Positions 24,216 to 59,286 of a stretch of 64,000 bases of DNA are shown here, piece after piece. Below the pieces are notes generated by a model. That model worked only from the letters and a program-made list of their open reading frames with translations, did no database searches and was not told the DNA's origin. Source of the stretch: Antedon bifida (Eukaryota > Echinodermata > Crinoidea > Comatulida > Antedonidae); assembly GCA_963402885.1 (NCBI GenBank), contig OY727101.1:13730917-13794916 (forward strand). Direction: 5' to 3'. Both the position numbers and the translations under genes were made by a program. How positions within the stretch are numbered: the first letter of the stretch is position 1; each line of letters opens with the position of its first letter.

Positions 24216-24247
<32 letters not shown>

Positions 24248-24297
24248 GGCCCCTGCGCAAGGATGACACGCAAAATCGTGAAGCGTTCCATATTTTT
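24191..24297 (+). ncRNA. U6: U6 spliceosomal snRNA, copy 2
   Basis: Identical in sequence to copy 1 and exactly 2892 bases downstream of it. TATA box, start and oligo-T terminator are retained, so it is probably an active gene. Confidence 0.97.
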
Positions 24298-26472: not shown

Positions 26473-26570
26473 GATATAAAGTTTGCGGTACACCACATAT
26501 ATTAGTTCTGAAAAAATCAACAGTTCTTTTCAGAACTAATATACGTGGTGTACCGCAAACTTTATATATC
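26473..26570. repeat. Hairpin insertion, unit 3
   Basis: Same inverted duplication as in unit 2, 2892 bases downstream, with identical arms and loop. Confidence 0.75.
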
Positions 26571-27082: not shown

Positions 27083-27107
27083 GTACTCGCTTAGGCAGTA
27101 CATATAT

Positions 27108-27139
<32 letters not shown>

Positions 27140-27189
27140 GGCCCCTGCGCAAGGATGACACGCAAAATCGTGAAGCGTTCCATATTTTT
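27083..27189 (+). ncRNA. U6: U6 spliceosomal snRNA, copy 3
   Basis: Transcribed region identical to copies 1 and 2. The flank differs (an A to G change two bases upstream of the start), and differences increase 3' of the gene. TATA and oligo-T signals are intact. Confidence 0.97.
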
Positions 27190-27663
27190 TAATTTGTTTA
27201 AATTAATTTAATGTTTTTCCCTCCAAAAATAACAAAAAATGAAGTTAAAAAACTATATAATAGGAAACTACCAAATCCTAATTAAAACGGTTAATACTAT
27301 GCATTTTATACTAATATAATCATTAAATATTTATAATCGTCCATATATTATCGATTTGTTCTTATTTTAATAAAGAAAAGTGATCAGGGAGGTGGTGGTA
27401 TAATTCGCAAATTTCGTTCATCGTTTTCGAAACAAAATTATAGAGTTGAAATGACTTATATGTGTTTAAACCAACCTTTAATTAAAGACTAGCATATTTC
27501 GATTAATAAAAAGTAATTTCAATTAGAAATAATTCGTTATATATCTTAAATAAGACGTGAACTTAATAGTTCTTTCAAAATATATAAAACGTTTTCTCAC
27601 GGAAGAGAGGGCGGACTATATTTTTCAGTCATAGTACGACGGGAACTATTGAACTATGATTAT

Positions 27664-27895
27664 CAATAGAGGGGGTAGTTGTCTTTTTTTATACTATCAT
27701 AATAATTTTAGAAATTATTATTGGACTATTGCACAAAATTAATTTGTTTAAAAGCAAGTAGCGACGTTTCCATGATATGAGGATATGGTATAGCACTATC
27801 TTTAAAGTATTTTATGAATAATAAAGGTATATATAAATAAATAAAAAACACGATCGTCCAAGTTTAAAAAAAAAACACAACTACCCCCTCTATTG
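27664..27895. mobile_element. Unoccupied TIR element, unit 3
   Basis: The uninterrupted 232-base form of the element flanked by the 19-base CAATAGAGG repeats. At 27686-27693 it shows TTTTTATA where units 1 and 2 have the duplicated TTTTTATG and the hAT-like MITE, so this is the empty target site. Confidence 0.6.
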
Positions 27896-31196: not shown

Positions 31197-34100
31197 ATGC
31201 CATTTGGACTGAAGTTTAAGAAAACCCGGAGATATTATGTCTCCGGCAAGAATTCATTTGTTGCGAGAATACAATTATTGGACAACACATTTATGGAGTG
31301 TACGTTATCAACTGAGGGCACTGGTCAAGACTGCCTTGAAGTTATCGGTCAGAAACTAGAGCTGGACGAGGTAGGATACTACAGTATTTTAGCCAAGTAA
31401 CTATGTAAAGGAAAATCTATTTAATATACAGTAGTACACGTAGAACCCCTATTTAGGGGACACCTTTTTATGACCCAAAACAATTATCCCCTATCCCCTG
31501 AATAGAGGTTTTTGTGGGTAAAAAAAAAATAAATATACAGTACGTAACCACAATGAACACTAATAATTGATCCTGGACTTCGAAAGTAACATGTGATTGC
31601 ATAGAATTATCGTAAAATCCTTTATTTATATCTGTACACCATTTCAATGTTTATCCAGCAATTCTGCACCTGTATAGTACAGTACATAAGCCCTGCTAAA
31701 TCCAGATGAAAAGCCATTAAATCTTGATGGTCAATGGCCGAGTTATCCAAGATGTCCCCGGAACTTCCAAGTTTTATAAAAACAGCCAACATTACAAAGA
31801 AATACAAATAGAATTTTGCTACAGTATACAGGATTTTCATTACCTTCCTTTTCTTATAGCTAATGTATTTTGGGTTGTTGTATATTAACAAGAACTACAA
31901 GTTAAGATGGGTTGAATTGGAAAAACCATTAAAGAAGCAACTTGATAAGAACGCTCATGATACGTTGTTGAGATTCGGTGTGATGCTGTATACGTCCAAT
32001 GTACAACACTTAAACCAGGAGATTACAAGGTAAGGAATTGGAGATTATCAACTTGCCCAAAACCGGACATGGTTAAAGGAGGTACTGTACGTTTATCGCC
32101 ACCCCCTTCCACTTTTTATGATGTTAATTATTACATATGATTATATGTAATAATCATATCATTTAACACTCCCCACCTCCTTTCACAATAGGTGCGTTAA
32201 CAAATCTTTAAAAAAAAAAAACCTTTTCAAAACTCAATTTTGCAGGAGATACACGGGGTGTAAAGCGTCGGAAAATTTAATTTATAGTTTGTCTTTTCGT
32301 AGAATATTTTATTTTAAACGTCAATTGATTACAATACAAGGAATTATCAAACAGCAAAGCAGATGTTTTCATAGACTTTCAGACATGATTTGGGATGTGC
32401 GCATACCCAGTCCGAGTTTACAAATTCCCATTTTTAAAGTACAGTAATAGCTTCCACTTTTATACTGTTTTGTATCGATTCCGTCCCCTAGACTATAACT
32501 GCCTAAAGGCTTGGCGCGAAAAACTATTGTGATAGTCTGCAAGTTGTAAGAAGCTAAGGGTACTGTACAGTAGTTGTGTTGTTATGTTAATAAAGTATGT
32601 GCCCTTTGGTTTGAGATGTTGAATCACCTTGCCTTATAACCTTAACCTAATAAATCAACTCTGTTCTGTTAGTTGAGGTCAAGGTGTGTCAGGCACATTC
32701 TGCAAATATCTATTGAAAATATTTCTTATAATGAAAGTTATCGGGACACAGATAGAGAAATTTTCAATGCCCAGACATGATTTTTTAATTGCCCCGGGAC
32801 GTCGAGCAGGGGATTCTGCAACCACTGAATGTTATTGCTAACCCTGAGGAATCAACAGAAAAGGGCAAACGATTAATAATGAAAGTGCAAATTAAAAAAG
32901 TTGGGATTTGAATATCATTATGAAGATCCCAAAAAATTGTAGTCATTTCTCGATTTATTCCACCCAGTCCTTCAGAAACAAATATATCTTCCGATTTTGA
33001 AATTTTGCTTTAGAGAAAGGTTGGGAGGTCTGAAAGTACTAAAAAAGAAACAGGTGGAAGACAACCATGTTGCCAATGTACAGGTGATAACTGAATACCC
33101 TCTGATCATTTAGCTATTTACTGTAAGATGGTTGAATGAGTTAGTCATTGTACCGTGAATGAACACATTACTCTACCTGTAAAAGTCACAGATCAAATTC
33201 CTTTGAATGGATCACTCAATTCAGTTCTAGGTAAAAATTCCACATTCGAAGAACTGAAATACAGTATAAGGCTAGTTTTACAATACTGTAAAGATCATTC
33301 TGTGTTAATATTTATTATTTCTGAAGAAATATTTCTTGTTTTATACTGTGTACTGTATAATAAATATGTGAGAAGACAAAAAATTTCTCCCTAAAATCAA
33401 ATTTTATTATAGATATATTACTATAGTTTGTGTGTGTGTATTTAATTTGTACTGTATTTGATAGGAATACTGTCAATGTTCTCCCAATTATAGAAATCAA
33501 TTCAGGCAAAGTACCAAATTATTGATACTTAATGTAGCTAATTTTACTGATACAAAAAAGTAAATTGTACTGTACATTTGTCTATCCAATTGAGTCATTG
33601 ATTGCTCTTGGTGCGTTTTTCTAATGGCTAGGCCTAACCTACTATACAGTTACCGCTACTATAGATAAGTGTTTTATGTATAATTTTCTTAAACTGTACA
33701 TCATTTTTAATACCAGAATTTAGTCTGGCAAATCTTGCTGGCAAAACCTACTTTGGAAGTCTAGAACAGTCTGTATTTTGATTATTCTGTTTAAAATGTT
33801 CTGTTCTGACTTATTAACAAGCATACAGTACTGTATTAAGTGAATAGATCTGATTATTGAAAATCTCTGAACAATACTCTTAACAAATGTATGTCCATCA
33901 TCAGCTAATTTGTTCAGTTGAGCAAATAGGAAGGAATTTAGTTTATTTAAAAAACACATATGACAAATATTGAATGTCAGTGTATTCTGGATAGCGATCT
34001 GCTATATTGCAACACTTTTAATAGAAATTACAAACAAATAAAGTTTTGCCTTCTCTTCATCCTATAGTAGAAGTATTCAGTATAAATATAACTTTTCTGC

Positions 34101-37100
34101 TGACAGCAAATACTGTAAATTCTACATGTTCTGTAATTGTGTGTGAATAAAATTACCTCCATTTTATTAGTAATAACAGACAAATTTCAAATAAGTGGTT
34201 AAATGGCATTTTCAAATATAATTCTGAAATACATTCTGAAATTAGTGATAAATAAAACATTTTTTCAAGACGTAGTTTTACTTTTAAGAATTGTTCATTG
34301 TTAATACGTATTATAAAGTGAGCTCAGAATGTGTTTGAGCTACATACAGTATTTACGGTTTTCGCAAACCTTTTCTATTCTCCACTTTTTTTATATCTCT
34401 GGTGTATATTGGTTTTCATGTACAGTAAAAGTTATCATTATTATTATTTCTAAGTCGAAATTCGTCTAAGTCGACGTCTTTTTGCGGTCCGAATACACAC
34501 ATTCTTTAGTGATTTATATCGTATAAGTCGAAGTCACATATCACGCGGCAACAACGCGTTAAAAAAGCCGATGAAACGTACGTAATTCGATAAACAAACG
34601 ACAGAGGAGATAATGTGGGACCATATAGGTTCTCTCAAGCACGTTGTATAGTATAGGCGGCGTCCTACAACTTGCGCTAGTGTATAATGTATGAGTTGTT
34701 TCAGAGTTGAGAACTTGAGCGGCGTTTTGTGGGTACCCATTTTGTGCTAGACAGATGGCAATAAACAATGGATACCGATTTCGAATAAGAACCGAAATGT
34801 ATTTATTATACGTTTTCGTATTGTTTCGAGCTTAAACCATAAAAGAAAATACAGTTATCATTGCCGATAAAGAGGCTTAGCATTTATTAGGCCTAGCTAG
34901 CTAGCTAAGTAAACTCAATTCAAGAAGGCTCATCGCGTGGGCCGCGATCGCGACAGGGCAGGGTCTACTAGGCCTAGCCATAACGCGGCTAGTGAGTGAA
35001 CCTAGGCTTAGGCCTGGCATTTTTTTTTCAAATCTGTAAGTCGAAGTTCGCGTAACTCAAATTTTTATACCGGTCCCATTAGATTCCACTTAGGCGGAGT
35101 CGACTGTATCATTATTAAAAACCAATTATTATTATTAAGATGTACAGTATTATTAGTGTCAGATTTTTAAAGATCAATACTTTATGAGGACATTCTTTAA
35201 CAACGTGATATTTCCAGAAGCGTGGCCTTATTACACAAGTCACACCACAAATTGTTGTGTTTACGTAAATCTGACATAGAATAGACATGCCTCCTACAGC
35301 CTTTTTTACTTTTCAAAAGAAATTCCAAAGAATCAACACACAATAGTGAAGCCAAATATATCAGGTCATGAGAATAAAATCAATAAACCTTTACAAAAAC
35401 TTCAGATCCTTTGTAAATTCAGTTTATTTCTTAACCGTTATTTTTTTTTAAGCAGTGTCTGGATGTACTGTAAACATTTCTTTTTTGATATCTGATATTT
35501 TATCTTTTAATTTTGTAGATATTTAATATTTTACACCTTACTGGAAAAAAATCATACTGTACTGTATCATTTTTTCATATCATCGTATTAATGCAAATTA
35601 AAATATGGGAAATTTATTTTTAATTCTGAAAATTCAAGTAACAAGGCTTTTCATAAAAAAAAAAGTATATACGGTATAGTATTTCAAGCAATTAAGAATA
35701 AAGTGCCTGGATTCATATATTCAGGTCATTTATGCTCACTGTTGATTGGCCAAAAGAAAAAAATTGTACAATTTCAGCAAACGAATGGCTTCTTGATCAA
35801 TTGCACCGAATTCGGAGTCCGAATCAGGTACGAATTCAAATCTTACGAATGCTTTACCACCAGTGAACCCATTTTCCATGATATTTTTCTCAGAGCACCG
35901 GACCGAATTCGGGCGCGATGTGAAAACAGCTTTATATACAAAAACACAGTGTCTCCTTAATTCTGTAAGACTTTAGGAGCCTGGAATTTTACTGTATTGT
36001 ACTACTGTTAAATCATTGATGCTTAAATATTATTTTTTGTAGGTATCTATATTTTCTACAGTTGAAGAGTGATATCATTGAAGGAATACTTCCTTGTAGT
36101 CTAGAGCAAGCAGTTCTACTAGCAAGCTATGCTGTCCAAGGTATGTTTGTTCCTTTATCTACAGTACTAACTATCTTTCACTTATTTTTAGAAAGTACAA
36201 GTATACTCTTTTGGCATTCCTTTACCACAATCAATATCTTGACAAATTCTATTATAGCTTTGACAACAGATATTTAAGCATGGCATAAAGAGAAAAGATC
36301 TGTTTTAAAGAACTCAATGGTAGCTTTTCTTGTTGCTTATAAATGTTAAAATTTAAATTTTTAATAGTTTTACAGGGTCTGTGTAGAAATGTTTGAGAAC
36401 ATTTGGGGGTATGGGATTATACTAAGATGGCATACCAAAGTCTTAAGTCCTAATTTAGCCTACTGTGCTATAAATTAGAGAGGGATTATACTCAAGCTTA
36501 GGATTAATACTCAAGCTTAGGATTAATAGTCATTATGAAGGGGAGATTTTGTTGTGTCCCAAAGGTATCTCTTTAATAAGGGTTAGTGTTGCTGACGGTC
36601 TAGTGTTGCCCGAAAGCTCTGCTAACTTTTCTGGCTGTTTTACTTTATCGTTTTGATTTAGCTTTTCGCTTTTTTTTTTGTATCCATTGAGATCCAGCCA
36701 CTGACCCACAGCATTGTCATTTTTTCAGTATTTTGCCTTTGGACTTAATAAGTGTTAGTGAAATATTAAGTTCACATTAGAAAATTTGTGGTTTGTAATT
36801 ATTTATTATTGCTAGGAGAATTTGGTTTCACACTATATTATCTAATTAAAAGAGAAAAAATGCAATAGGGATTAATGATCATTCAATGTTGGTATTAAGG
36901 GCTTTCAGAACAATTATATTATTATCCACGACCTTGCATTCTTTGCTAAGTTTTAAAGCACACACAACAAAAAATGTTTCTATAATCGCAATTCATGCGT
37001 ATTTGTCAAAAATTCCAGTCATGTGACTTAATTAATGACTCATACTCGTAGCGGCATATTTACCTTTTGTTTTTATAATTTCACGATCCAACGAACCGTA

Positions 37101-40100
37101 ATGCCCTCCACGTTCACGCTAAAAGAACTTTTCAACCAAGTTTACAATCATCGATGTTTGTTTTAGTTAACAAGTCTTTTCTGACTTTGAACACTTTAAG
37201 AATTTTAATTGGTTTCTAATTCCTAAAGTTTGTAAAGGTTCATTTAATCTGGGTATTCAATATTGTTAGTTGACTGTTTGGTTCATTAAGTCTTAATTTT
37301 AATTGATAAGGCCCTAATTAACATTAAGTGTATAGGTATTCCAATCCATACTTGGGACATATCTTAGCAGGCTGGCATGGTGTCTCTATGCTAAAGCGAC
37401 AGGTAAAGTTCCATAATATTCTGATTTCAGCATGTTAGTAGAATTCCTATTAACAGCATAACTTTAGGACCAAATATATTTCCCATTAACAGGGATGTTC
37501 TTAGAATACTATGTGTGTTTACCATAGTGTTAAAACAAAGCATTCACACTAAAGATTTTCCTGAATGGATGGGCGTTCCCAAAGAAGGTGTTGTACTGTA
37601 CTACTAGTACTGTATTTATTTTGTGTGTTTCATGCCTAGCTTACCTGGATATTTCAGTTTGTGATCTTTTGTTATTTCTGTTACATTATTTAAATTCTGT
37701 AATTGTACATTGTATTATTGGAAATGTTTTATTTATTTGTTACTTAAAAATTCTTTTTTTTCTTCAGCTGAATTTGGAGATTACGATCCAGATCGTCACA
37801 CCTTGGAATTTTTAAAAGACTATATTCTTTTGCCAAAGGTATGTACATTTAACTAATTTTTATATCTCTGAATTTAGTGTGGTTTAACATGCCATTGTTT
37901 CTATCACAGTGATCCAATTGTTACCAGCATTTTCCTTGTGTTAAAAAAATAGCATGTAAATATTCTGCATAATGAGAGTAATGTTTTGTGTATTTGAATT
38001 TATTAATACCAAAATATAATTTATCAGTGCTTTCGATTACATACTAATATGATCTTATCCATTTTCTGTATCCTAAATTTTGAAAATAAAAATATAATTT
38101 ATCAGTACATTCGATTACTTAGTAGTATGATCTTCCATTTTCTGTATCCTAAATTTTGAAAATAAAAATATAATTTATCAGTACATTCGATTACTTAGTA
38201 GTATGATCTTCCATTTTCTGTACCCTAAATTTTGAAGTGAGTCAACATATGTACAGTAATTGTACATGTTATATGGTGCTTTAATGAATAACCAAACTTG
38301 TCATGGTGATGAGTTCAAATCTAATGACATTGTCATTGTTTCAATACAGTTGGAACAGTGTGTAAAATTTGAGACTGTTTCTTCTGTGAGCAAGTAATAA
38401 CTGTGTGAATAAATATACCCTATAGGCATAATGATCCTAGGGGATTTTGGAAATTATAATGCAAAAGATAGGATATCAGGTTCAGCACTTCATTTCACCA
38501 AGGCAGTGGGTCCCTATTTCAAAATCCTGAATTCATCACTTCCCTCAATTGCTTGACAGCATAAACAGGAAATGTCAAGTAAACGGTTAACGTTTAACAA
38601 CAAAACAACACCCAATTATAAACTAGATAATCTCTTCATATTGTATATTCTTTACTTCCTTTATTTGTTAATTTGTAGAACATAAAGATTGATACTGTGG
38701 TACAATCGGAACTACTCCAGGAAGTGATCAACACATACAAGCATCATATAGGTCTGTCACCCGACATGGCAGAGATCGCCTATATATCAGAGGCATCTCA
38801 ACTGGATGGATATGGTCAAGAATCATACCCTGCTAAGGTACAGTGTTTCATTTAAGTATCATCCTCAAGTATAAGCCTATTCTTGAGTGTAAGCCCAACC
38901 TTGGGTATAAACCAAGCTTTGGGATAAGCCCATGAGCCTTGAGCATATACTGTACAGTATATATATAAAATTTTGCGTAATATTTATTATAAATAAAAAT
39001 GTATTATATCCAGTATGATTAGAATTGCAAGTTAAACCCACCTCCTACCGTAAACCTATGAGTTGTTGGACGTGAGGAAAGGTGAGAAAGGAGGGTTGGC
39101 TTAGACCCAAGTAAGGGTGCCTTCTTTATTATTACGAATCTGAGAGATACTCCAAACTGAAGCTTTGTCTACAATAGTTTGACAAAAAAAGTGTGATGTG
39201 CCTAAATATGGTAGTGATATGACATCATCATGTCCATATAATGGGCACATCACATTTTTTGTCACATAAAGTTTGATAGTGTAGACCGCGTTTAATGACC
39301 ATTTTGGTATCAGTGGGTCAATCTTATTGGTTCCAATTGTTTGCAAGGAGGAGGAAAAACTTTATACCAATAGACTTTACTTTCCACAACTGTTATTGTG
39401 TGGAAGAATATCATATGCTACATTGTACTCACTGCGGGTGCTTAAAGTTTATTTAGTCACTTTCTCCGACCTATATGCCTTATGTCATTGTTCCTACAGT
39501 TATTTTAATGCTTATTACTTGTTTGTGACGATACGCTTCAATGAGCACATATTTAGAGCATTTTGTGGCAAAAGTCCAAGACCAAAATTAAACCACCCAT
39601 CAGATGGATTGATTATTAAATGTCAATTAGAGTAGTGACCTCTCCAAAACTTGATACACTTGTTCTTGCCCAAAATGTATGGTTGTCCAAAATTCTGGTT
39701 TCATGAATATATTTTAATTTTGTTAATGAATTTTGACCAGCATTTCTTTCTCACTTTTATTTACCCACAAATATAAATGATAAACATTGTAACATAAATA
39801 AAACATAATATATCAAGGAAAGGGAAGGGAATAAACATTGGAAAAAAGAAGTTATAAAAATAAATGATTAAATTAAATTTAAACCGGCAATACAGTTTAT
39901 TCAGGGGTTAGGTTGATTGTTTAGGGGTTAGGTATTTCATTTTGGCTTTTTAAATCGTGCGGCTGAATTTGTTGGAATCGATGTAATCTGTTGACTGTAT
40001 TGTGCATGCGGCACGATATACTGTACAATAATGTAAAGTGAGTTAATACTAAACACCATTCATATGTCCTTATGTGTCAAAAATGAATACAGTAAACAAT

Positions 40101-43100
40101 AATAAGAATAAGATACAGTAATACTAATACAAGTATAGATTTTAATAAGTTTATTCAACAGTCAATGACCTAAAAATGACCTACAATAGGTTACATTAAA
40201 TATTCCTTGAATTCTCTATTACTGTATATGTTTTATTACACATTTAAGTTAATAAAGAGAGAATTTGAAGTGTTGATTGGTATTTATGATTTTGGTATTT
40301 TGACAAGAACTCCGCCCACTACTACTGGACATATTTTATGGCCTAGTAATGCTATGAAGTGATCCTACCAACCACTAAACATATTTCATTGGCCAGTAAT
40401 GCTATGTAATTTCTTTGGTACAGTAGGCTGTTCAGGGCCATTCAATCCACCATTGTTCGCGAAAGCAGATATTTTTTTTCAACAAATATGTGTTCATTTT
40501 TTATCTTTGGATTCATAAGGTAACAACGGCGTTATGATTAAAAATATTTCTTACATTTACTTTGTTACTGGTCCTCATGTATTTGTATGATGCCTAAAAC
40601 AATTTATTTTTTAAAACGTTTTTTTATTTATTTTATTAGGATGAACACGGCCATGATTTACTTTTAGGAGCCTCTTTCATTGGAATTTTTGTCAAGCATT
40701 TGAACGGACAGCCAACAGTATATTTTAAGTAAGTAATAACTTATTGTTTTTTGTGCGAATGAAGGGACATTGGCAGTTAGCGTAATACATGGGCAAAGCA
40801 TTAAGGGGCCCTTCAAAGCTGGGTAGTTGCATTGGGGTTCCTCAAGCTCTGAGCCCCTAAAGCTCTGGGGCCCCTGGATTAGCCAGTGAGCACTCAGAGC
40901 CATTACACCACTGGACATTGGGACCTAGACACAGTATTGCCAAATTCTAGGACCAGATGGCAACACAATGTGCACAGGTCCTAGGTCATTTGCAAAGCGA
41001 AACTCGCTCATGTGTGAATTTAAAAACTAGTGTAAAAATCCAGAGAAGAAAGGCATTTCATTGCCACTCTACAGTAGCCATAATGCTGAGAATTAAGGGA
41101 CCATGTCAAAATCATTCTACTGCAGATACTGCAGTAATTATATTTTGTTTATTATTAAACCTGTTTATGCAATTATTTAGCCATATTTGGAGGATAATCA
41201 TACACACTCACTGTTAGTGTTATTTCCTTCCTTATATAAGCTTCAACAAAACTAACCAAAATCATACTTTATTGCATTAAAACATGTAATTACAATTACT
41301 GCAGTAAATGCAGTAAAGTAATTTTGACATGATCCCTAAATATCAGTAATTCTGTATTTTGCTTTATTATTAGTTTATTATTGTTTGTTTTGATAATATA
41401 TGATGATATGAATTGATAAAGATAAAAAAATTTAGGAAAGTGAAAATATTAACTCTAGGGTAGCCTCACTTAAACCAGGGAAGCTCAAAATTGTATTTTT
41501 GGTTGCTTGGCAACTAAAATGTTATTTTGGCAAGAGGGAAATTTTGAAGCTTTTTATATAAATTCTTTGGTATGGAAAGTTTTACTGTAAATATAATGTT
41601 ATAAAATACCTGTGGTTTAAACTAAGAATACAATAATCCATGCTTTTTTCAAAAGGATTTTTGTAATTCTATAGATGTTGATATCGCAATAAAGTACATT
41701 AGAGGTTGGCAGTTCAAAAGTATACAAATGAAATATGTCACATGCCATTTGAATTAATCTAATGATTTTGTGAACTTGTGGTTTTCCCTGATCTATCTGA
41801 GTTAAATTACGGTCTATCAGATTTGAACTGCTTTCACATCGGCCAGATTTGGTCCAATGCCCAGAGTAAATATTGCGTGTGTTGAGCGTGGTTTCATATC
41901 GAGCACTAATTTGGTTATCCAGTGCCACACAATAATAATAATTCAACATTTATTAGTTTCTATCAATGGTAAAGCAATACAAAAAAAAAAAGTGGTAATT
42001 TATAATAAGATAATACAAAAATACCATTAATAGAGGATCTTGCAAGAAGAGATTTCTTGTCACGCAAGACCCATAAAGGAAAAGAAAAAAATACATTTGT
42101 ACATAGATCATTCACATGCTCACTGTTGATTGGTCAAAAGAAAAAAATCATATTAAATTTCAGGAAACAAATGTTCTGTGCACGCTTAAAGTCTAGTGCA
42201 TGTGGACACAATATATTGTGTAACAATTCTATTAGCTTATAAGAAAACAAAGCATTTTTGTGGTTTAAAAAAATGGAATTTTGTTTCACATTTAAATGAT
42301 TTAATAACAATTTATCAAATTGTAAGTTATTTAATTAAATTTGTATGAATGAACTTTCAATGTCAAAGGTACTGTACCATAGCTCTCAATAAAATTTACT
42401 GTATAAATACATTTTTCTGAACATATTTGTGACTGTGCCAATAACAGTATTTACTTAATATCTATTTTGGTGATTTCAAGAATCAAATTGTTGATTTGTT
42501 AATTTGAATACAATGTCACTAGTCAGATGTAGAATTGACTAATAATTTGATGACAAGGCAAATACAATTGTAATACAATTGTTTTCTGTATCAATATTAT
42601 TTATTTACCAAATTTGTACAAGGGTATTTTTTTCATTTCCCCATACCATCACATATATGACTGGTGTGCATCATTATCATGTGATTTTGTAATGCAGGAA
42701 AAATGTATGTTTAAAAAGTTGAATGACTTGAATCCTAGGAAAACTACTGAAAAAAATGACAATGCTGTGAGTATCATTTACCCATACCATCAGATATGAC
42801 AGATGTACATCATTATCATGTGATTCTGTAGTGCAGGGAAAATGTATGTTATTGAATAAATCCTAGCAAAATTACAGAAAAAATTACAATGCTGTTGGTA
42901 TATCAGTGGCTAAATCTTAATTGAGCAATTTAAATCAAAGCAAAAAGCTAAATAAAAATGATGAAGTAAAACAGCCAAACAAATTTGCAGAGCTTTCGGG
43001 CAACACTACAGTAGCCCTGGGCCTTCATCAGTACTAGTGACAGTACTTTAAGAAATTGAATGGCATTACCTTCTGATCAAGAACACTTTTCACATCTGCA

Positions 43101-46100: not shown

Positions 46101-48600
46101 AATTACTGCGCAAAAATGCGTTTTTGCGCGCGCGATACTTAAAAAGCGTAAAAAATATGAATTTTTTTTACAAATCTCATTCTACTCACCATCCTTAGTA
46201 CATTCACCAAATTTGAGTCAGTTCCGACTTAAAATAACGCTATACGAGCACGTTAAAAATGACAAAATGCGCACATTTATTTTACAAAAGTTCTGAAAAT
46301 GGTGAAAAATAGGTCTTTTTTAAAATGAAAATAATTCTTCAGAATGCAAGATGACCCCCGATTTTTTTAACTTATTCTGGAAGCCATTGAGTTGTAGATA
46401 TGAATTCATGTACACATTTTACGTACAAAATGTTTTGACGTCATCAAATGGCCACTTGAATTTAAAAATTAGGATTTGTTATCTTTTTGTGTAGATTATC
46501 ACATTCAACAGAGCGCATCTTGGTTATGTGTGCTCGAATTTCGCACAACTTTCAGTATGTGCTTGCTTAATTAATTATCTTTATCATGAGTTGACACTAT
46601 CTTCATTTTAATGACGTCATCACGCGTAAAAACTTGAATAACGTAGGCCGTGTAATTTCACCTTCGCAGTAAATTTGAATATCTTACAGCTCTTCAGAAT
46701 TGAAGGTTACCTTGATGATTATAATTTATTATGAAAGCTGATGAAATGTAGATATTTATTCATATAAAAATTAAGCCTATCGGATGTTGTGACGTTAACA
46801 TATGGCCAGTTGAAGTGAAAAAGTAGTTTTTTCATATTTTTCGTCAAAGTTATACACAATTCAAAGAGCGCGCACAGCGCTTCTACGTGCCAAATTGTTT
46901 TCCAAATCTTATATTTTTTTGCTCAATTAATTATCTTTCGAAATTGTCATCTTAAAGTTTAGTTTGATAACGTCATCATGCCAAAAAATTAGAACATGTG
47001 TCCCGCAATTTCACCTATGCTACACTGTATATAGATATACAGTATATACTGTACATATTGTATATGGCATATAGGCACAACTCAGCACTATAAGTATATA
47101 ATAGGATGGCATACATCAACATTTTCCGATCGTATGTTAACGTACGTGCATGTTTAAAAAAAAATTAATTTCAGTAAAATGATAAAAATGATCACCTATA
47201 ATTCGTCAAAGTGACGAATTAAATTCTAGTTTATAGGTTAGTTTAGTTTCAGGATCTTGTCAGATAATTTATATACCAGACATTTGGACTGCCACTGTAT
47301 AATGTTTACATTATGTTTAGGAAAACATTTCTCTCAACAGTGTCATAGACATTTCATGATTGATTAAAAATCTGCAGAAAGCATTTCATAAGACTGTAAA
47401 AAAGTGTAGCGTATTAACAGTGCATGGCTTATGAACTCATTTTGAAGTATAAACCTATGTCTACACGCTCTTTTCTCTTTGGGAGTTAAAATGGATATGA
47501 AACAATGTCAAAATATCAACAAATGTTGATGAATCATTTTGACGTAAAATATAGAGTTATAGAGGTGGCGCTGCGTGGTTGCTAGCCAACCAAAAAATGC
47601 GTTCAACCTGCCTGAGTGACTCCAAGGTCACCAATGGTTTGGAATAGGCTTATTGAAGTAGTCATTTTAAAACTTAATCATTTTCAATAAAAATAAACTA
47701 AAATTTTAAAAGATCACTAAATATTTGTTTTTAATAATCTATTTATTCTTCAACTACAGTTTAAGTTTAAAAAAATTAAGCTAAGATACATAATTTGATA
47801 GAAATACAGAGATACAGTTTATCAACATAGTAGCGTTGAACGCATTTTTTGGTTGGCTAGCAACCATGCAGCGCCATCTATCGTTGTGACGTCACACCGC
47901 AGAACTCTATAGGTTGAATATCTTGATATCTTTGATAAATAAAATAAGTGAAATTTCAGGGAAAATGGCTGACCAACGACTGTAGCATCTAATCTTTGTT
48001 TCCTTAACATTCTAAACAAACGTATGCATAATCGTTAATTTAAAAGACCACTTTTGTAGCTGTTTCGTAATTTGTTAACAATGCCCAACTACAGCCAATG
48101 AGCTTCATCAAAGCGGACATGGAACGGATGTAAATAACACACATGTCTGTACTTCCGGCCGGGAGTGTTGTTAAAACAGCAATTCTAAACTAGAGTGTTT
48201 TATTTTTCTCCAAACTAAGTTTATGTGAATGAAGAAAAACACAAAACTTACGCTCTGTCTACACTATCAAACTTTATGTGACAACAAAATGTGATGTCAT
48301 ATAACTACCATATTTGGGGATATCACGAACATATTTGGGCACAACTAGTTTGATAGTGTAGACAAAGCTGTAGGTATATTTTGTGGTATATTAGAGTTAC
48401 ATTGCATCCTTTTTCTGCTGTATTTTCAGATGGAACGATATTGTAAATGTGACTCATTCTAAGAGGTTATTTGGTATAGAAAAGGCTCACAGTGAACAGA
48501 CCATCTACTTCCACATGGAGGATGCAGAGAACGCCAAGTACGTCTGGAGGATGTGCAATACGCAACATCAGTTTTATAGAATCAACCTGGAGAATATGAG
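31197..48600 (+). CDS. FERM-domain exons of the Pez-like gene (7 exons)
   Basis: The first seven coding exons encode the F1 lobe ([15 protein letters not shown] and [12 protein letters not shown]), F2 ([53 protein letters not shown]) and F3 ([54 protein letters not shown]). The conserved [11 protein letters not shown] segment is split by the exon end at 38837. FERM domains bind membrane lipids and protein tails. No disruption is present. Introns are up to 7.7 kb and hold most of the interspersed repeats. Confidence 0.92.
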
Positions 48601-51600: not shown

Positions 51601-54600
51601 AATTACAAAATCAGTAATGCAAGTGAGAACCACATATCCTACTTCCCCTACTAAAAAATTTGATTTCTTTTATATGTTTTTAAAACTCTACAGTATATAC
51701 AAATATGGGTTTTAGATGCGAGATGGTGAATTACAGATTGCTGTTGCAAGTGTAAATTCACAGATTCAATTTCAGGCTTGGTTTGTTTATGAATCCCCAA
51801 CACCTTGTGAACTCTGTTGACCCTAGTTGACCCTAGTTGAATGAGGATCAGGAATTTAAAGCATTTTCAGTCAAACATAGGCATTTTATAGGTCATTAGT
51901 ATATTTAAATGGGATAAAGGCCAATTTACACGACAAGCGGTAACATAAGTGGAAAATAACTATATTTTTTTGTTTATTTGTGTAAATTGGCCTTAATAAT
52001 ACATAAAAAGCTGTTACTATTGATTTGTTATTGAATGTCCATATTGTATGTATTCAGTGTTTTTTATACACTTTGGTTTAGTTTGTTACACTGTTTCATA
52101 TTCTTCAATATTTATTTATTATTTACTATTTTAATATTTTTCTATTAAAATGTGTGTACTTTTTTGTACTGCTACATAATCGTTTTGTTAGCTATATTCA
52201 ACAGACAATGTGACAAGCAAGTGCCAAACATTTTAAAATGTTGTTCAACAGACAAAAGACTTGGCTTGGGATGAACATTGTTTTTGCCATTGTTGTTCTA
52301 TTTGTAGTCATTTGGCATTCTTCCAGAACTAGTACTACTGATAATTGATTTGGCCTCTAATTGCAGGCTGTATTTACATATTTTATATATGATTTTATTA
52401 TTTATTTTTGTAGGCACAATAGAAATGAAGTATCACTTGATGGACCAATGCAAGGCCTTACTAAATCTCCGGTCACCTCGTCCATTGAGAGACGACCCAC
52501 ACTAATAAACAGACGCAATGCTGACACGCAAAATCATGTGATAACAAAGCGCTCCCAAAGACTGTCCTCATCAGGTAATACTAAATATATTTATGTTATC
52601 TTTTGTATTTCAATAATAATTTGTTTACACTTATTTATTTATTTATTTCGGTATAAAAAAACATACAAAAAGCAGCAGAAGCTGAAAGTATGGCATTTAC
52701 ATAATTACTGTATAAAAAGTACACAAAAACATCAAAACATTAACATAGGAAAAATATCAATACATTAAGTAATAAAAATTTATACAAAAAACATTCAAAC
52801 ATGAAATAGTCATACAAAAACAAAGGGAAATCAACCACAGCAAAAAAGTGATTAAAATTCATTAGATTGAGTAATACACATAATAATAGAAAATGTTAAA
52901 GTCTGAATATTTCCAAAAATTGTTTACAGTAAAGGTAATTTGGTTACAGTATGTTGTTGATTCTCAAAAATGTCAACTATGATTGTTCAGTTATATCTCA
53001 AGATATCATTCTCAAACAATAAAAAAAAAATATAAGGTTATATTGCATATAACCTAATAATGATTTACCTGTTAATAATCTCTGTTTTTCCTTTGTCATT
53101 ACAGATATTGGAGATATGGATTCTAGGACAACGGTTGAACTTACAACTAATCCAGAAATAATTGCTTTTAATGAGAGATCAAATGGAGATCTTATCAGCA
53201 GCCATGAAAACATGAGGGTAGTTGAAAATGGAATGACGAGCCATGCGCTTAGTATGAACTCATTGAATCAAGGAATTCAGATGCCCGTGTCTCCAATGTC
53301 TTCAAATTTAAGCGTGGCAAGTAATGAGCCACGGAACTCTTTGTATACCCATCTCCCAGCCTATCGAGCGAGTCCTGATTATGACACCGTTTTACGAGCT
53401 AAGCAAAAATTAGCAGAAGTTGGAGAACACAGTCAAAGCCTTGGTAATCTTGGCGTAGGACATGGTGTATATCACAATGTATTGTATTACGAGCCAAACG
53501 GTCGATACGGTGCCGCTATGCACCCAGCCAATAGGCAACAAATGTCACTAAGCTATAGCAACCCGAACACAAATATATCAAGTAGCGTGATTGACACGTC
53601 ATCAGAATCGTTACAATATCCATCCGTGAATCAAAACCTTTATAACCAAATGATGGTGGCGTATAGTACGCCAGAATTGAGTAAACAATATCATTCCGCA
53701 GAGGAATATGTCACAGAAAAACTGTTGAAAAATAAGTTTAAACCTCCACCACCGTATCCACGTGGAAGCACGAGCACTCCAGATCTTGCACGACATTCCA
53801 ATTTCTCCGTCAGTCACAGCAGTCCAGATTTAGTGAGCAGACGATTGCGCTCCTCCATTCAACCGGTGCAGGAAGTTACAGATTTACCAATGAACAGTTC
53901 GTCAAGTAGTAACGTTGTGAATATTAGTAATGTGGATCTATCGCAATCATTGCCTGTAGAAGCATTCGGTAACTTGCACCTGAACGGCAACATGAACCAT
54001 GTTATGCACCCGTTAAGGCGACACGACCAACAAAGTTTGAACTACTTTAATGGTTTGTCGCATATGAGGCCTGGTTATTTAGATTTATCAAATCCAGATC
54101 CCCGTTTAGTCTCGCTTCATGAGTACCAATCAGACCCGGCATTACGTATTACACACACTCCTCATCATGTTGTTCGACCGCCAAGTGATTTCGCAGATAC
54201 TAGTGATATGGACTCACCTAATATGCTCTACAGCCCACCACCAGCATATAAACATACCCCTTCTGCTAACGATGTGTTCTTTAGCCAGAATGGGTATAGC
54301 GAAATGGAAACTAGGTCACCCACGAGTCCTGGGTCACCCTCTAGAAAATTCACTCCAAAGCAATTAGAAAGATCTGCTGAAATGCAAGAACTTAATGGAT
54401 CGCAATTTGCACTGCAAAATCATCATGAAACAAATATCGTGCAATCACGTTTACGCACAGTCTCTGCCCCGGATGCGTTACAGGAGACTCACTTTGGTGC
54501 TTCTATGCCGTCTTACGATGCAACGTCCGATTCGTCATCAACTATGTCGCCGGTTAATAAACAAGCACCATTAAGTCCGAGCCACATGAGTGTTAGTTCC

Positions 54601-57600
54601 GTCACTACCACTGGGAGTGGAATGACGACTGATTCGGACTCGGAAGACCAAAACAAAGACAAAGAAGATGATGAAAATATTATAGGACCTCTTAAAATGG
54701 CCGCCATGAATGGTTTAACTCTTGTGCGACCTGGAAAGACCGATTCTGAAGGCACAACACCTGTCAAGCACCCAAGAGATGCAAGGGTATGTTCTGATAA
54801 ATATTAACCAAGTATATGTTTTTTGTATAGTACTATGTATTTTCCCGAAATTCTCATATTCCAAATGTGTTTTTAATGGTAACAAAGAATTTGGAACCTG
54901 TTAGACCAAGTATTTGGTAGAGTTTTCCGGGTCTCTAGAGAGGCTGGTATTAAGACAGTTGGCTTAAAAAATATGTACATTCAGCTCTCCAAAAAGTGGT
55001 TCTTAGATTGTATTATGTCATGTGAGGTGTTTTTATTTAATTTTGATTTTAGTTTACATTTTTGTTTTCAGCGGAAAATCCTTGAAAACCAAATCACGGA
55101 AGGACAAGTTTTTACAGAGTATGAGAAAATAGCCAGAAAGAAGCCAAATGCGTCATTCTACACAGCACAACTACCCGACAATGAAGCACGAAACCGCTTC
55201 AAAGATGTACTCCCATATGAGGTTAGAGGTCGTTTCTCAATCATATTTACTTTTACTGTTACATGGCTCTTCTTGCCTTCTTTTGTGATTAATAAGTTAG
55301 GGTACAATAATGACACCAGTTCCAACTAAGATCTGCGTAGAGTGGCATTCAAGTTTAGCTACTGTAAATGGCACATGTATAGACTAGTCTAGCATAATTC
55401 TCATGTGGTTTGCAGATGTCAGATTCTTAGCTCTGGTTGAATTTTTTTTCCGGAATAGTTACTACAGTAAAACCACTAGTAAGTGGACAATATCAGCACC
55501 AAACGAATTTACCCATCAATTGGGTTTTTCCTATTGGTGTTGGTAGTAGTACCTTTGGAACCCAACTAAATTTCCTCGAAATAGGTTTATCATAGTTCTA
55601 GGACATGTATTTATCCTTGTTTGTTTCACAAAAAGATGTGGTAAAACTTTTGAGATCCATTATATTTGTTGTACCATTTATTATAAGATTGTTTTGCAAA
55701 GTATATTTAATTTTTTTTTAGGATACACGCGTGAAGCTGGCTACAATGGTGGACAACAGCACAGGTTACATCAATGCTTCTCATGTCAAAGTACCAATAG
55801 CTGGAGAGATCATGCACTACATTGCATCTCAAGCACCAATGGAGAACACAGTGAAAGACTGGTGGAGGATGGTTTGGGAACAAGAGGTGCTTGTGATTGT
55901 GATGTTGACAGCTCTTGAGGTAAGTAGATTATAATGTTAGTGGTGATGGTTGTGGTAGGGAGATGGTTGTGGTAGAGAGGTGGTTGTGGTATGGTGATTA
56001 TGGTGGTAAGATGATGGTGGTATGCTATGGTGAGGATGGTATAGGTACATGTGATGTGATTTTGACAGCTCTTGAGGTAAGTAGATAATAATCTTAGTTG
56101 TGATGGTTGTGGTAGAGAGATGGTTGTGGTAGAGAGGTGGTTGTGGTATGGTGATTATGGTGGTAAGATGACTATGGTGGTAAGATGATGGTGGTACGCT
56201 ATGGCGAGGATGGTATAGGTACATGTGATGTGATTTTGACAGCTCTTGAGGTAAGTAGATAATAATCTTAGTGGTGATGGTTATGGTAGGGAGATGGTTG
56301 TGGTAGAGAGGTGGTTGTGGTAAGTTGATGGAGGTACACTATGGTGGTGATGATATACTATAGGTACATGTGGTGTGATTTTGAAATAGTGATGGTTGTG
56401 GTGTTGGTGGTTGTGATGACTTGTGTCTGGTTTTAAAGCATTTAGTACAGAATAACTGGGCGTTATATTATGTTTTATTATTCGATTTGAATTATAGGAA
56501 GATGGCAAGCAGAAGTGTTACCCATATTGGCCAAATTTCAAGGCATCAAATAACATGGTTGAGTTTGGACCAGTAAGTATTATCTTCCCCAGGCATATGA
56601 AAATGATCTGGCTAATTCTGTTTTGTTCCAACAATTCCACATCTTGTACAGATGTTCCCATTAATTAATCAAAATCATGCAAACGATCTAAAACTAATTT
56701 AAGTTTTTTTGGTCTAAATTAGTACATATCGCTCTCCAAAAATGTTAGTTCCACCAATATTGAGTGCAATTTTGAATGTTATTCTTTAAAAATAGGCGGC
56801 GCTGTTGGAATTTAAGTGAGGTTGTCCACAGTAATGGTCTTGAGTTTATTTATCTACCAAGTTAATTCCTGGTTAGACAAATGTTCTACCTTAATGATAT
56901 CGACTTTAAACTCTTTGAATGTAAATTAAATAAAATAGATAAAGTTGTGACACATAAAACACGTTTCTTAAGTGCTGTAATTGCTCTGAGTAGAAGTGTC
57001 AAGAGAAGATCAAAGCCTATTTTATACTGACACACAGTCAAGATGTACAGTTATACTCTAAGCTATTTTTGTTAAGTTTAACAAAACACAAAAATAATAT
57101 ATTAAATGATTAATTAATCTTGCATCAGTCATAATGCATCAAGTGAAGAGCAAAGCATTTTTTTACGGCAACACAAAGATAATATTATTATGTTATTATA
57201 CCTAAAGCTATTTTTGTTAACCTAGGATCTATTCATTTACAGTGTGATTTAGTTTGATCATAATGGTTATCATTGACCCCTTATAGAATAATTTTCCCAA
57301 CATAATAACATTTTTGACAATGAAACACTGTTAGATATTTTTATTAATATCCGCTACATTTTATCTTTAAATAAAATGTGGGGGGAATAACCTGTGTCTT
57401 TCAACCTACCTGGTTGGTTCACACAACTTTTATCTCTCTTAAACTGTCTACACTATCAAGTTTACACTAACTAGTTTGACAAAAAAATGTTATGGGCCCA
57501 AATATGTTAGTGATATGATATCATCATGTCCATATATGGACACATTTTTTTTCACATAATGTTTGATAGGGTAGACAGAGCTTTAAAGGTCCCTTCGTAT

Positions 57601-59286
57601 CAAATAACTGGTACCATTTGCCTGTCAACGGTGGGGGCTGTAACCCCCACCATTTGCCTGTCAATAGTGGGGGCTGTAACCCCCACCATTTGCCTGTCAA
57701 TAGTGGGGGCTGTAACCCCCACCATTTGCCTGTCAACGGTGGGGGCTGTAACCCCCACCATTTGCCTGTCAATGGTGGGGGCTGTAACCCCCACCATTTG
57801 CCTGTCAACGGTGGGGACTGTAACCCCCACCATTTGACTGTCAACGGTGGGGGCTGTAAGCCCCACCATTTGCCTGTCAATGGTGGGGGCTGTAACCCCC
57901 TGCTTGAATTCAAACAATGCACTGGGTTCACACAAGCCAAATGTGTACTGCTTTCAAATTTTTGATAAATCAACATTTGTTTGAGATTCATCAATAGTTA
58001 TCAGCTTTCTTTCTAACAACAATCTTATTTTTGATTTAAATATCTTCTTATTATTTACAGTTTAAAATAATTGGACAATTCACTAATGATTCCGGTTGTT
58101 ATATAACCAGTGGTCTTACGATCCGTCACATTCCATCCGGAGAGCAGCGTACAATATGGCATCTACAATACACGGATTGGCCTAAACAAGGCTGTCCAAC
58201 AGATGTTTATGGCTTTCTCAGTAAGTGGTAGTTTGTTTAAATATATATTTAATTGGACAAAACTAAGTAAAATAAATTGTGAGCTGAACTTTATGTGAAT
58301 CTAAGCCTACTCTAAGGTATGATCCCACTATAGGGTATAAGCCCATTGTAGTATATGTTGGCATTTAAGCAAATAGATTTTGAGCCATTTATTCTATTAC
58401 CAATACTGTACATCAAAAAATATTCAATATTGGTTGATACTAAGAAATCATACTAATTTATAAGAATTCCATTGGAGAAAAAATTGTATTAAATTCACAT
58501 TATTTTAATTGTATATGTAAACAGGTTTTATTGAAGAATTTCAGTCTGTTTGTCGTCATGCCAACAGTCTTCATGAGAAGGCAATTTCATCACCTGTATT
58601 AGTACACTGCGTCGCAGGTGTTGGCAGGACAGGTGTTCTTATACTTACAGATGCAATGATTAACAGTCTAGAACATAATGAGGTTGGTACTTATTTGCAT
58701 ATATTATTCTCATTGGCTGATTGGGAGTTTATTTGTTTTGCATTATAATATCCCTATCTCAATGTTTTATGTATCTGTGATGTTTTGATTATTTTAGTGT
58801 CATTTTGTACCATGTAACTTTTATTGCAGAGTATCATGAATTTCCCTGTTTTATTTATACGGACAATAAGGTTTTCTGAAATCCTGAGGTTGATGCTCAT
58901 TTGCATATATTGTTCTCATTGGCTGAATTTAATCATTATAAATAGTAATGTACCTATTTCAATTAGATTGGTACTCATTTGATAATATATAATTTGCTGA
59001 GGCTGATTAAGAGTTGTTGTTTAAAGTATAATTATGTACACATTAAATATATGTAGCAATTTAAAAAAATATTTTTGACGCTCACCATTCAAAATGTGTA
59101 TTCGCATTCACATGTTGGCCATTCAGTGTTTATAATTTTGTTTTTTTTTACATATAGGAAATCAACATTGCCAAGATGCTGAATCTGATTCGTCAACAAA
59201 GAATGTATACAATACAAACAGTCGGCCAGTACCAGTTTGTTTACAGAACACTTATACAGTCACTCAAGAACACAAGACTTATATAG
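31197..59286 (+). CDS. PTPN14/21-like: FERM and tyrosine-phosphatase domain protein, PTPN14/PTPN21 (Pez) orthologue
   Basis: Fifteen coding exons in consistent phase: 31197-31370, 31860-32029, 36043-36140, 37768-37838, 38679-38837, 40640-40728, 48430-48600, 52414-52574, 53105-54786, 55072-55221, 55722-55919, 56498-56572, 58061-58220, 58525-58682, 59158-59286. Total 3645 nt, 1214 residues (family about 1175-1190). The order is FERM domain (about 1-311), linker (312-925) and PTP domain (about 950-1210). The start [13 protein letters not shown] and end SLKNTRLI match family ends. The first coding exon begins at 31142 after 'tttttttccag', so 31142-31196 is 5' UTR. Pez proteins sit at junctions and cytoskeleton, bind YAP/Yorkie and Kibra through PPxY motifs and restrain growth. 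The active site is altered (see the PTP block). Vertebrates have two paralogues; this looks like the single invertebrate form. Confidence 0.94.
34440..35108. mobile_element. Pogo/Tigger-like element remnant
   Basis: The right end, read inward, is TA|CAGTCGACTCCGCCTAAG followed by a GGGACCGG block. This resembles Tigger/pogo terminal repeats (CAGT-start, TA target, GACC motif). The left side carries related 'aagtcgaaattcg' and 'taagtcgacg' words, but its terminus is eroded. There is no open reading frame. Confidence 0.4.
35725..35760 (+). repeat. Dispersed repeat block shared with 42117-42151
   Basis: 'atgctcactgttgattgg' followed by 'ccaaaagaaaaaaat' occurs here and at 42117, with one change. 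Flanks diverge within 30-50 bases. The family is unknown. Confidence 0.5.
38011..38236 (+). repeat. Three-copy tandem repeat, about 75-base unit, in intron
   Basis: Three head-to-tail copies of 'aatataatttatcagt...cattttctgtatcctaaa'. The second and third are nearly identical; the first is diverged. It lies between coding exons 4 and 5 of the Pez-like gene. Confidence 0.8.
39160..39293. mobile_element. Palindromic MITE family copy 1
   Basis: Inverted ends 'agctttgtctac' and 'gtgtagac', with internal 'tagtttgacaaaa', 'gtgtgatgtgcc' and mirrored 'gggcacatcacattttttgtc'. The whole element folds on itself. Further copies lie at 48252, 48879, 57441 and 63681. Confidence 0.75.
40740..40930. repeat. 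Dispersed repeat fragment, copy 2
   Basis: Contains 'aagctctggggcccctgg', 'attagccagtgagc' and 'accactggacat', matching in order the block at 61-262. The class is unknown. Confidence 0.45.
42632..42900 (+). repeat. Two-copy tandem repeat, about 140-base unit
   Basis: 'cccataccatca', 'catcattatcatgtgatt', 'tgtatgtt', 'aatcctag.aaaa' and 'acaatgctgt' appear twice in the same order, with several differences. Confidence 0.65.
43086..43392. mobile_element. TIR element (MITE), about 307 bases
   Basis: Left end 'cttttcacatctgca' with 'aacttgtaa' and 'gtaaccaggttt'. The right end is the inverted counterpart, 'aaacctggttac', 'acaagttgt' and 'tgcagatgtgaaaag', giving imperfect arms of about 52 bases. 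It has no coding capacity. Confidence 0.7.
43650..43938 (-). mobile_element. 5S rRNA-derived SINE (SINE3-type)
   Basis: On the minus strand 43861-43920 reads as the 3' half of 5S rRNA: 'gaagttaagcaacgttgggc' then 'cctggtta' and 'cttggatgggagacc'. This includes the internal promoter box C region. It continues into an unrelated body ('gctgctgctgact' to 'gtcattagtc'-like sequence near 43650). The body makes a SINE more likely than a bare 5S pseudogene. The 5' third of the 5S sequence is not recognisable. Confidence 0.65.
44549..44862 (+). mobile_element. tRNA-derived SINE
   Basis: The head resembles a tRNA with an A box (TGGCGCAGTG, 44556-44565) and a perfect B box (GGTTCGAATCC, 44599-44609). 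A body with 'acccaggtgtataaatgggt' follows. The tail 'aaagcgcctttgagc ... gggcgctatataaatg' ends in a (TTA)n run at 44849-44862. This tail structure is typical of invertebrate and deuterostome SINEs. A functional tRNA is excluded because the cloverleaf 3' half and acceptor pairing are poor. Confidence 0.85.
45638..47220. mobile_element. Unclassified 1.6-kb element with internal duplication
   Basis: The left edge is a palindrome of TAGGTGATCATTT and its complement (45638-45669). The right edge repeats AAAATGATCACCTA and ends in a second palindrome, AATTCGTCA/TGACGAATT (47200-47220). Inside, two diverged copies of about 300 bases (46365-46675 and 46725-47025) share 'gatgaaatgtaga..t..tatt', 'tgacgt.a.ca.atggcca', 'ttaattatctt' and 'gtaatttcacc'-like ends. 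There is no protein-coding frame, so it is probably a non-autonomous transposon. Confidence 0.55.
47551..47910. mobile_element. Foldback element with long inverted arms
   Basis: 47567-47607 and 47835-47875 are near-perfect inverted copies ('gttgctagccaaccaaaaaa', 'tgcgttcaac'). Weaker complementarity extends to 'atagagtt' and 'aactctat' at the edges. A 227-base unrelated centre separates the arms. Confidence 0.75.
48252..48369. mobile_element. Palindromic MITE family copy 2
   Basis: Bounded by 'gctctgtctacactatcaaa' and 'gtttgatagtgtagacaaag', an almost perfect pair of inverted ends. It lies 60 bases upstream of coding exon 7. Confidence 0.8.
48879..48990. mobile_element. Palindromic MITE family copy 3, truncated
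   Basis: Starts 'agctgtccacactatcaaac' and proceeds through 'tagtttgacaaaaaatgtg'. The segment 'tgatatgcccaaatatgg' is partly duplicated, and the right inverted end is missing. Confidence 0.7.
50705..50945 (-). mobile_element. SINE, minus orientation
   Basis: On the minus strand a promoter-like head with a GGGGTTCAATT B-box-like block (near 50885) runs into a body and then 'gtacagcgcttagagg ... ggtgctatataaatcc' and a (TTA)n tail. This is the same tail design as the element at 44549, but with a different head. Confidence 0.6.
51094..51117 (+). other. Candidate 24-base microexon of the Pez-like gene
   Basis: 'gctttcacttcag' then 24 bases (ACCAGGCTATGATAGCCAAC and ATTG) then 'gtaagatgg'. It is phase-compatible: inserted between the exons ending at 48600 and starting at 52414, it adds eight residues (PGYDSQH and a junction Trp) without a stop. 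Both splice sites are strong. Nothing in the family demands it, so it may be alternative or fortuitous. Confidence 0.4.
52414..54786 (+). CDS. Linker exons with PPxY motifs (2 exons)
   Basis: Exon 52414-52574 encodes an Arg/Ser-rich segment ([17 protein letters not shown]). Exon 53105-54786 encodes 560 mostly disordered residues. Family landmarks in order are [19 protein letters not shown], a [11 protein letters not shown] block, FKPPPPYP (PPPY at residues 579-582) with STPDLARH and SSPDLVSRR, a second PPAY (743-746), an acidic stretch [15 protein letters not shown], and [17 protein letters not shown], matching the conserved motif just before the phosphatase domain. PPxY motifs bind WW domains of YAP/Yorkie and Kibra in Pez homologues. 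14-3-3-type RxxS sites are plausible but not specific. Confidence 0.92.
55072..59286 (+). CDS. Tyrosine-phosphatase domain exons, altered active site (6 exons)
   Basis: The exons encode [33 protein letters not shown] (substrate-recognition loop, here lacking the canonical KNRY), [58 protein letters not shown] and the Q loop [18 protein letters not shown]. The nucleophile Cys (residue 1148) and P-loop Arg (1154) are kept. The WPD-loop acid is Lys (residue 1108; Asp in PTPN14, Glu in PTPN21) and the P-loop Ser after Cys is Val (1149). By classical PTP chemistry this predicts weak or no turnover, perhaps with substrate trapping. Junctions are all in phase, so these are not decay artefacts. Confidence 0.93.
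55920..56400 (+). repeat. GGTGGT-rich tandem repeat including duplicated exon ends
   Basis: Units of 157 and 174 bases each contain 'gtgattttgacagctcttgag' followed by 'gtaagtaga', a copy of the last bases and splice donor of the exon ending at 55919, then degenerate 'gatggttgtggtagagaggt' runs. Extra donors lie after 56076 and 56250. A partial fourth copy sits near 56367-56393. Confidence 0.85.
56573..57440 (+). other. Intron, nothing recognised
   Basis: AT-rich sequence after the exon ending at 56572. I see no exon, RNA gene or repeat in it. Confidence 0.4.
57441..57586. mobile_element. Palindromic MITE family copy 4
   Basis: Ends 'actgtctacactatcaa' and 'tttgatagggtagacag', internal 'ctagtttgacaaaaaaatg' and mirrored 'tccatatatggaca'. 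It is possibly flanked by TTAA-like sequence on both sides. Confidence 0.8.
57612..57902 (+). repeat. 36-base minisatellite, about 8 copies, each a hairpin
   Basis: The unit reads CATTTGCCTGTCAAYGG then TGGGGGCTGTAACCCCCAC. Each contains the perfect inverted repeat GGTGGGGG / CCCCCACC around a 6-base loop. Copies differ at one or two sites (C/T in 'caaYggt'). Because 36 is divisible by three, all frames look open, but the array sits inside an intron, and the reading frames over it are not genes. Confidence 0.92.
58683..59157 (+). other. Last intron, with a partial duplication of the exon edge
   Basis: 'gaggttggtacttatttgca' plus 'tatattattctcattggctg' at 58680-58725 recurs, diverged, at 58885-58930 ('gaggttgatgctcatttgca'). 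A further trace is at 58965. No exon is recognised. Confidence 0.5.

Follow-up and report, generated by a model that had tools for sequence, protein, structure and literature searches.

Can a Pez-type protein tyrosine phosphatase (PTP) with a lysine in place of its general acid still work as an enzyme, or is it kept for another job? The question is raised by a stretch of 64,000 nucleotides from the crinoid Antedon bifida (assembly GCA_963402885.1, contig OY727101.1, positions 13,730,917 to 13,794,916 of the forward strand; hereafter the window), which harbors an intact, in-phase orthologue of Pez (PTPN14/PTPN21), a scaffold-like protein that takes part in growth-control signaling. The acidic residue of the WPD loop is absent from the PTP domain of this gene. 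We infer, with somewhat more confidence than doubt, that the domain has lost turnover to become a pseudophosphatase or near-pseudophosphatase, and that the protein acts as a scaffold. All Pez residues given below were read from the sequence of one genome assembly.

Substitutions in the PTP Domain

The WP loop is encoded by exon 13 (58061..58220, on the + strand like the whole gene) and reads WPKQG, with the lysine specified by AAA at 58184-58186. The human counterparts are WPDHG in PTPN14 and WPEHG in PTPN21, as checked on PDB entries 6iwd, 2bzl, 8gxe, and 8gvv. A first-pass annotation of this DNA had noticed the lysine at a position occupied by Asp in PTPN14 and Glu in PTPN21, and had concluded that the general-acid carboxylate is lost; exon 13 bears out both points. 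With no carboxylate at the WPx position, the leaving tyrosine would not be protonated from there, and a very low turnover of phosphotyrosine is expected. Because AAA is one base away from GAA (Glu) and two bases away from either Asp codon, the shorter route to lysine may have led through a PTPN21-like Glu.

The P-loop, encoded by exon 14 (58525..58682), reads HCVAGVGR at 58605-58628. The Cys (TGC, 58608-58610) and Arg of the HCx5R motif are retained, and Val (GTC, 58611-58613) follows the catalytic Cys, where PTPN14 has HCSAG; crystals of PTPN21 carry an engineered Cys-to-Ser substitution, with the Ser following that position present. Both the retention of Cys and Arg and the replacement of Ser by Val had been recognized correctly in the earlier annotation, although the positions it assigned to the latter (58609-58611) straddle the Cys and Val codons. 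As a sign of inactivity, HCVAG is weaker than that annotation suggested: PRL-1 in the PDB reads HCVAGLGR, so that HCVAG alone is not disabling and does not serve as proof of a dead enzyme.

Other catalytic elements have been kept, namely the Thr next to the P-loop Arg and both Gln of the Q-loop (PTPN21 Q1152 and Q1156; QTVGQY, of which QTVGQ spans 59215-59229), the latter in exon 15 (59158..59286), which ends in the stop codon. The Tyr of the KNRY loop is absent and its aromatic character is kept: exon 10 (55072..55221), where the PTP domain starts, encodes RNRF (Phe, 55198-55200), the same as in PTPN21, the corresponding residues being RSRI in PTPN14 and KNRY in the first domain (D1) of PTPRS. 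Further changes of the core are found in exon 11 (55722..55919), with SQAPM (55827-55841) instead of TQGPL and DWW (55857-55865) instead of DFW. Altogether, Pez differs at 9 of the 66 columns that are invariant among PTPN14, PTPN21, and the D1 and second (D2) domains of PTPRS; the nine include three columns in SQAPM, one in DWW, and the Ser-to-Val change in the P-loop, and some of the remaining four are conservative. The WPD position is outside these 66 columns because PTPN21 and PTPRS D2 already have Glu there.

Eleven residues have been named for the interface between the FERM and PTP domains of PTPN21. When the FERM numbering is anchored, as in this analysis, on the QRLELR stretch, seven are identical in Pez, two are replaced conservatively (E47D and R55K), and two are not (R59D and R1031Q). 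Since the interface residues are mostly kept, an autoregulatory docking of the two domains is plausible, though not assured.

Gene Structure and Identity

The Pez gene consists of 15 coding exons, joined across the window from 31197 to 59286. All the internal exon junctions are AG/GT, and a single open frame of 1214 codons runs from MPFGLKFKK to NTRLI and a stop; the C-terminus is SRLI in both human PTPN14 and PTPN21. A processed pseudogene is ruled out by the 15 exons with introns and the clean frame.

The FERM domain is encoded by exons 1 (31197..31370, F1), 2 (31860..32029), 3 (36043..36140), 4 (37768..37838, alignable to the PTPN21 FERM domain, with no Pfam match by itself), 5 (38679..38837), 6 (40640..40728, the start of F3, located with a human-type probe), and 7 (48430..48600, FERM_C). 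The best PDB matches of this part, obtained with a query whose exon join is slightly inexact, are human PTPN21 FERM domains (E = 6.3e-77), and five of the six FERM stretches submitted match FERM_N, FERM_M, or FERM_C of Pfam. The linker is encoded by exon 8 (52414..52574) and the long exon 9 (53105..54786), which contains LPAY at 53353-53364 and two PPxY motifs, PPPY at 53746-53757 and PPAY at 54238-54249; by chance, at least two PPxY motifs occur in a fraction of 0.0096 of 5000 shuffles of the 561 residues of exon 9. The PTP domain follows, with exon 12 (56498..56572) in the joined frame. In the PDB comparison it is nearest to PTPN14 and PTPN21 (E = 4.2e-108 to 8.4e-108, against 1e-88 for the family that comes next), and it matches Pfam Y_phosphatase with E = 3.9e-72, values that leave no room for a chance resemblance; identity is 54.9% to human PTPN14 and 54.5% to human PTPN21. 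The first-pass annotation had called this an otherwise intact, in-phase gene of Pez type. Indeed, the FERM, linker, and PTP matches confirm the type (Pez, or NT6, among the non-receptor PTPs), and the exons, junctions, and frame confirm the intactness.

The intron preceding exon 13 harbors a GC-rich, minisatellite-like stretch with inverted symmetry at 57627-57900.

PTP Domains Elsewhere in the Genome

The whole assembly (315.6 Mb, 27 contigs) contains at least 159 PTP-domain exon matches. When 35 of the 55 regions around the listed matches were surveyed with a small profile, a WP loop could be read in 52 exons, which are arrayed copies and not independent events. The residue at the acid position is D in 30 of them, K in seven, E in five, I, S, and T in two each, and V, P, A, and N in one each. 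A P-loop scored canonical adjoins 26 of the 30 D exons and two of the five E exons, the other three E exons having no P-loop in the stretch. All of the seven K exons adjoin P-loops scored degenerate or incomplete, including two whose P-loop is only partly aligned, and for four of the seven a WPD exon is found upstream within the stretch, an arrangement that would be expected of second domains in tandem receptor PTPs. In apparently dead PTP domains of this genome, therefore, lysine recurs at the acid position. Judged by these motifs, Pez combines a non-acidic loop with an intact HCx5R, and at least one surveyed locus, L024, may do likewise. Val after the Cys was seen in none of the surveyed exons, in many of which this residue is unreliable as the P-loops are split by introns.

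As a control, the LAR/PTPRS-type domains of the same genome are 71–79% (D1) and 84–93% (D2) identical to the human ones over the main matched pieces; the Pez PTP domain thus seems comparatively diverged, although the control is a rough one, different genes being compared. The receptor-type PTP exon arrays are located on contigs C10 (6.40-6.82 Mb and 11.0-11.1 Mb) and C11 (23.41-23.53 Mb), within loci L016-L043; many of what seem to be their second domains are degenerate and have loops that read WPK, WPI, WPS, WPT, or WPE.

Proposed Loss of Catalysis and Its Alternatives

According to the literature on PTPN14, PTPN21, and fly Pez, an acid-less Pez would fit a mainly non-catalytic job. PTPD1 and PTPD2 are reported to be inactive on all phosphopeptides tested (Barr et al., 2009; PMC2638020). 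PTPN21 is described as a weak enzyme, with a kcat of ~1.2/s on DiFMUP that rises to 38.3/s in the E1067D mutant, and is inhibited by its own FERM domain (Chen et al., 2024; PMC10901363). PTPN14 deleted for the PTP domain reportedly retains YAP repression (PMC3628344), and macrophage recruitment by fly Pez is rescued by phosphatase-dead and PTP-deleted forms, not by the FERM-deleted form (PMC7902905). Furthermore, fly Pez is reported to promote cortical Merlin through PI4P (PMC11956869). The scaffold role proposed in the first-pass annotation is therefore likely (PMC2638020; PMC10901363; PMC3628344; PMC7902905). Its other proposal, loss of normal catalysis, stands as to the missing acid but started from too high a baseline: since PTPN14 and PTPN21 are reported as already inert on the peptides tested (PMC2638020), little normal catalysis was perhaps there to lose. 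Pez would then serve as a scaffold of membrane and cortex, in which the FERM domain may make contacts to the membrane, Src-family proteins, or Merlin, the PPxY motifs of the linker may bind WW proteins (YAP/Yorkie and Kibra among them), and a binding and autoregulatory surface may be offered by the folded PTP domain.

A number of observations weigh against such a non-catalytic scaffold. Pez still has the Cys, the Arg, the Thr, and the two Gln of the Q-loop, and it has also kept the PTPN21-type contacts to phosphotyrosine, which would be dispensable in a dead domain. R59 and R1031, residues of the FERM-PTP pairing in PTPN21, are changed non-conservatively. In the genome survey, 4 of the 30 D exons adjoin degenerate P-loops, and two P-loops scored canonical, SAGVGRT at L024 and SGGAGRT at L021, adjoin non-acidic loops (WPA and WPP, respectively). 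The PRLs, including PRL-1 with its HCVAG P-loop, are described as slow yet genuine phosphatases (PMC10040874). PTPN14 and PTPN21 themselves are reported to be active on DiFMUP (PMC2638020), ERK activation by PTPN21 to require the catalytic Cys (PMC10901363), and the PPxY motifs of PTPN14 to be dispensable for repression of endogenous YAP (PMC3628344); a review lists PTPN14 substrates and catalysis-dependent effects (PMC4929422).

Part of this evidence could be read as a sign that Pez is still a slow phosphatase, in which water or a neighboring side chain replaces the acid, or a good leaving group is used, and Val is tolerated as in PRL-1. Besides the retained catalytic residues and phosphotyrosine contacts and the PRL-1 precedent, the reported turnover of DiFMUP by the WPE-bearing PTPN21 (PMC10901363) and the WPA loop adjoining an HCSAGVGR P-loop at L024 would favor slow catalysis. 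However, a basic group here replaces even a weak Glu, two more core motifs (SQAPM and DWW) are changed, and none of the other WPK exons found in the genome adjoins a P-loop scored canonical, which makes a slow enzyme rather unlikely in our view. A different use of the same pocket is also conceivable. The equivalents of PTPN21 F927, A1110, V1112, and R1114, reported to contact bound phosphotyrosine, with the Phe holding its ring (PMC10901363), are all conserved in Pez, including the Phe at the position of the KNRY Tyr. Phosphotyrosine binding by the Pez PTP domain, which the first-pass annotation had stated as kept, is hence plausible, while a trap role is conjecture. If Pez were specialized as a reader of phosphotyrosine or as a natural substrate trap, the Lys over the bound phosphate would slow release, and Pez would shield or hold its phosphotyrosine partners. 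In accordance with this, C1108S PTPN21 is reported to bind a Src peptide similarly with and without E1067D, so that the acid seems dispensable for binding (PMC10901363), and PTPRU has been proposed as a scaffold in competition with active PTPs (PMC7320164). But the Lys might equally keep the WP loop open, and SQAPM and DWW suggest a general loosening of the core, not a tuned pocket; a reader or trap is thus unlikely. More doubtful still is that the Pez of this lineage has been fixed as a phosphotyrosine-binding module at the cortex, which would hold its partners and not dephosphorylate them, the Lys lying above the intact Cys and Arg that cradle the phosphate and an aromatic side chain forming a wall for the phosphotyrosine.

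Finally, an allele that is private or heterozygous, or an error in the assembly, might account for the Lys, or its codon might undergo A-to-I recoding (AAA to GAA, Glu); the working protein would then be WPE-like. The single base between AAA and GAA is compatible with this. On the other hand, the frame is clean across 15 exons and several other core positions have also diverged, which indicates that the Lys is no isolated oddity. Only one Pez locus was found: of 37 matches in the assembly, 31 lie outside the locus and are 27–51% identical, and the remaining six, on contig C14 (73–98% identity), are the Pez gene under study; a second Pez gene or haplotype copy was not found in the assembly. An RNA-editing hairpin at the Lys codon is not supported. 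The RNA surrounding this codon folds no more stably than shuffled versions of it (z = -0.79; 45 of the 200 shuffles equal or exceed its stability), and position 58184 is covered by no arm of the 15 inverted-repeat pairs that are listed for 56573-59286. We consider an allele, error, or editing site very unlikely. Searches of the window by tblastn with both catalytic exons and PTPN14 gave no second copy of either exon and no WPD or WPE exon, which rules out a WPD exon within the window as a mutually exclusive splicing alternative. In the prokaryote and viral contig collections, which include no relatives of the host genome, no Pez orthologue was found, as expected for an animal gene.

Other Features of the Window

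Upstream of Pez, a tandem unit of 2892 bases extends over ~20951-27692, each copy with a U6 snRNA gene (at 21299, 24191, and 27083); the U6 sequence is identical among the copies, and 49 mismatches are found in 3850 positions compared at the 2892-base offset. An open frame of 519 codons at 14288-15844 (+ strand) encodes a protein kinase domain (Pfam Pkinase, E = 2.5e-19) and has an N-terminal part rich in serine. On the – strand, a ChaC-like (gamma-glutamylcyclotransferase) exon is present at 8662-8904 (E = 6.6e-19), and the open frame at 7358-7723 is a candidate for the remainder of that gene.

Comparison with Known Systems

The need for catalysis in PTPN14 and PTPN21 is disputed: both are reported to be inert on peptides, yet substrates are credited to them. 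If the proposed loss of catalysis is true, the loss of the acid in an intact Pez gene would be natural evidence for a conserved non-catalytic job of Pez, and the protein would be ready-made for the study of binding without turnover. If it also binds phosphotyrosine, it would be a natural, evolutionarily fixed counterpart of the laboratory substrate-trapping mutant. In the literature collection searched, no paper contains the whole words WPD and WPK together with 'tyrosine phosphatase'.

Non-acidic WPx loops in invertebrate PTPs have already been published. R3 receptor PTPs of Ciona (WPQ and WSV) and acorn worm (WPI) have, like Pez here, no acid at the WPD position, whereas they belong to a receptor family and not to Pez, and Lys is not mentioned in the account available (PMC5336234). 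The receptor-PTP arrays of the same genome share WPK itself (7 of the 52 WP-loop exons), but their P-loops are degenerate (for example, DGVCRS and NGIRRS) or incompletely aligned, while that of Pez keeps HCx5R. PRL-1 (PTP4A1) shares the HCVAG-GR P-loop and differs in being of another phosphatase class, with Ala after the Arg where Pez has Thr.

Within the Pez family, the acid-less protein extends a known trend and is not a new kind of system. Drosophila Pez, compared by description only, is likewise an invertebrate Pez, whose PTP activity is reported to be dispensable in macrophage recruitment while the FERM domain is required (PMC7902905). Human PTPN14 (PTPD2, Pez; PDB 2bzl and 6iwd) has the same architecture with two PPxY motifs and differs in keeping WPD and HCSAG and in having Ile (RSRI) where Pez has Phe (RNRF). 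Human PTPN21 (PTPD1; PDB 8gxe, 8gvv, and 8gvl) shares the order of FERM domain, linker, and C-terminal PTP domain, RNRF, an atypical residue at the acid position, and probably also weak activity, as predicted for Pez from its motifs; it differs in having Glu in place of Lys and Ser in place of Val after the Cys, and lacks SQAPM and DWW.

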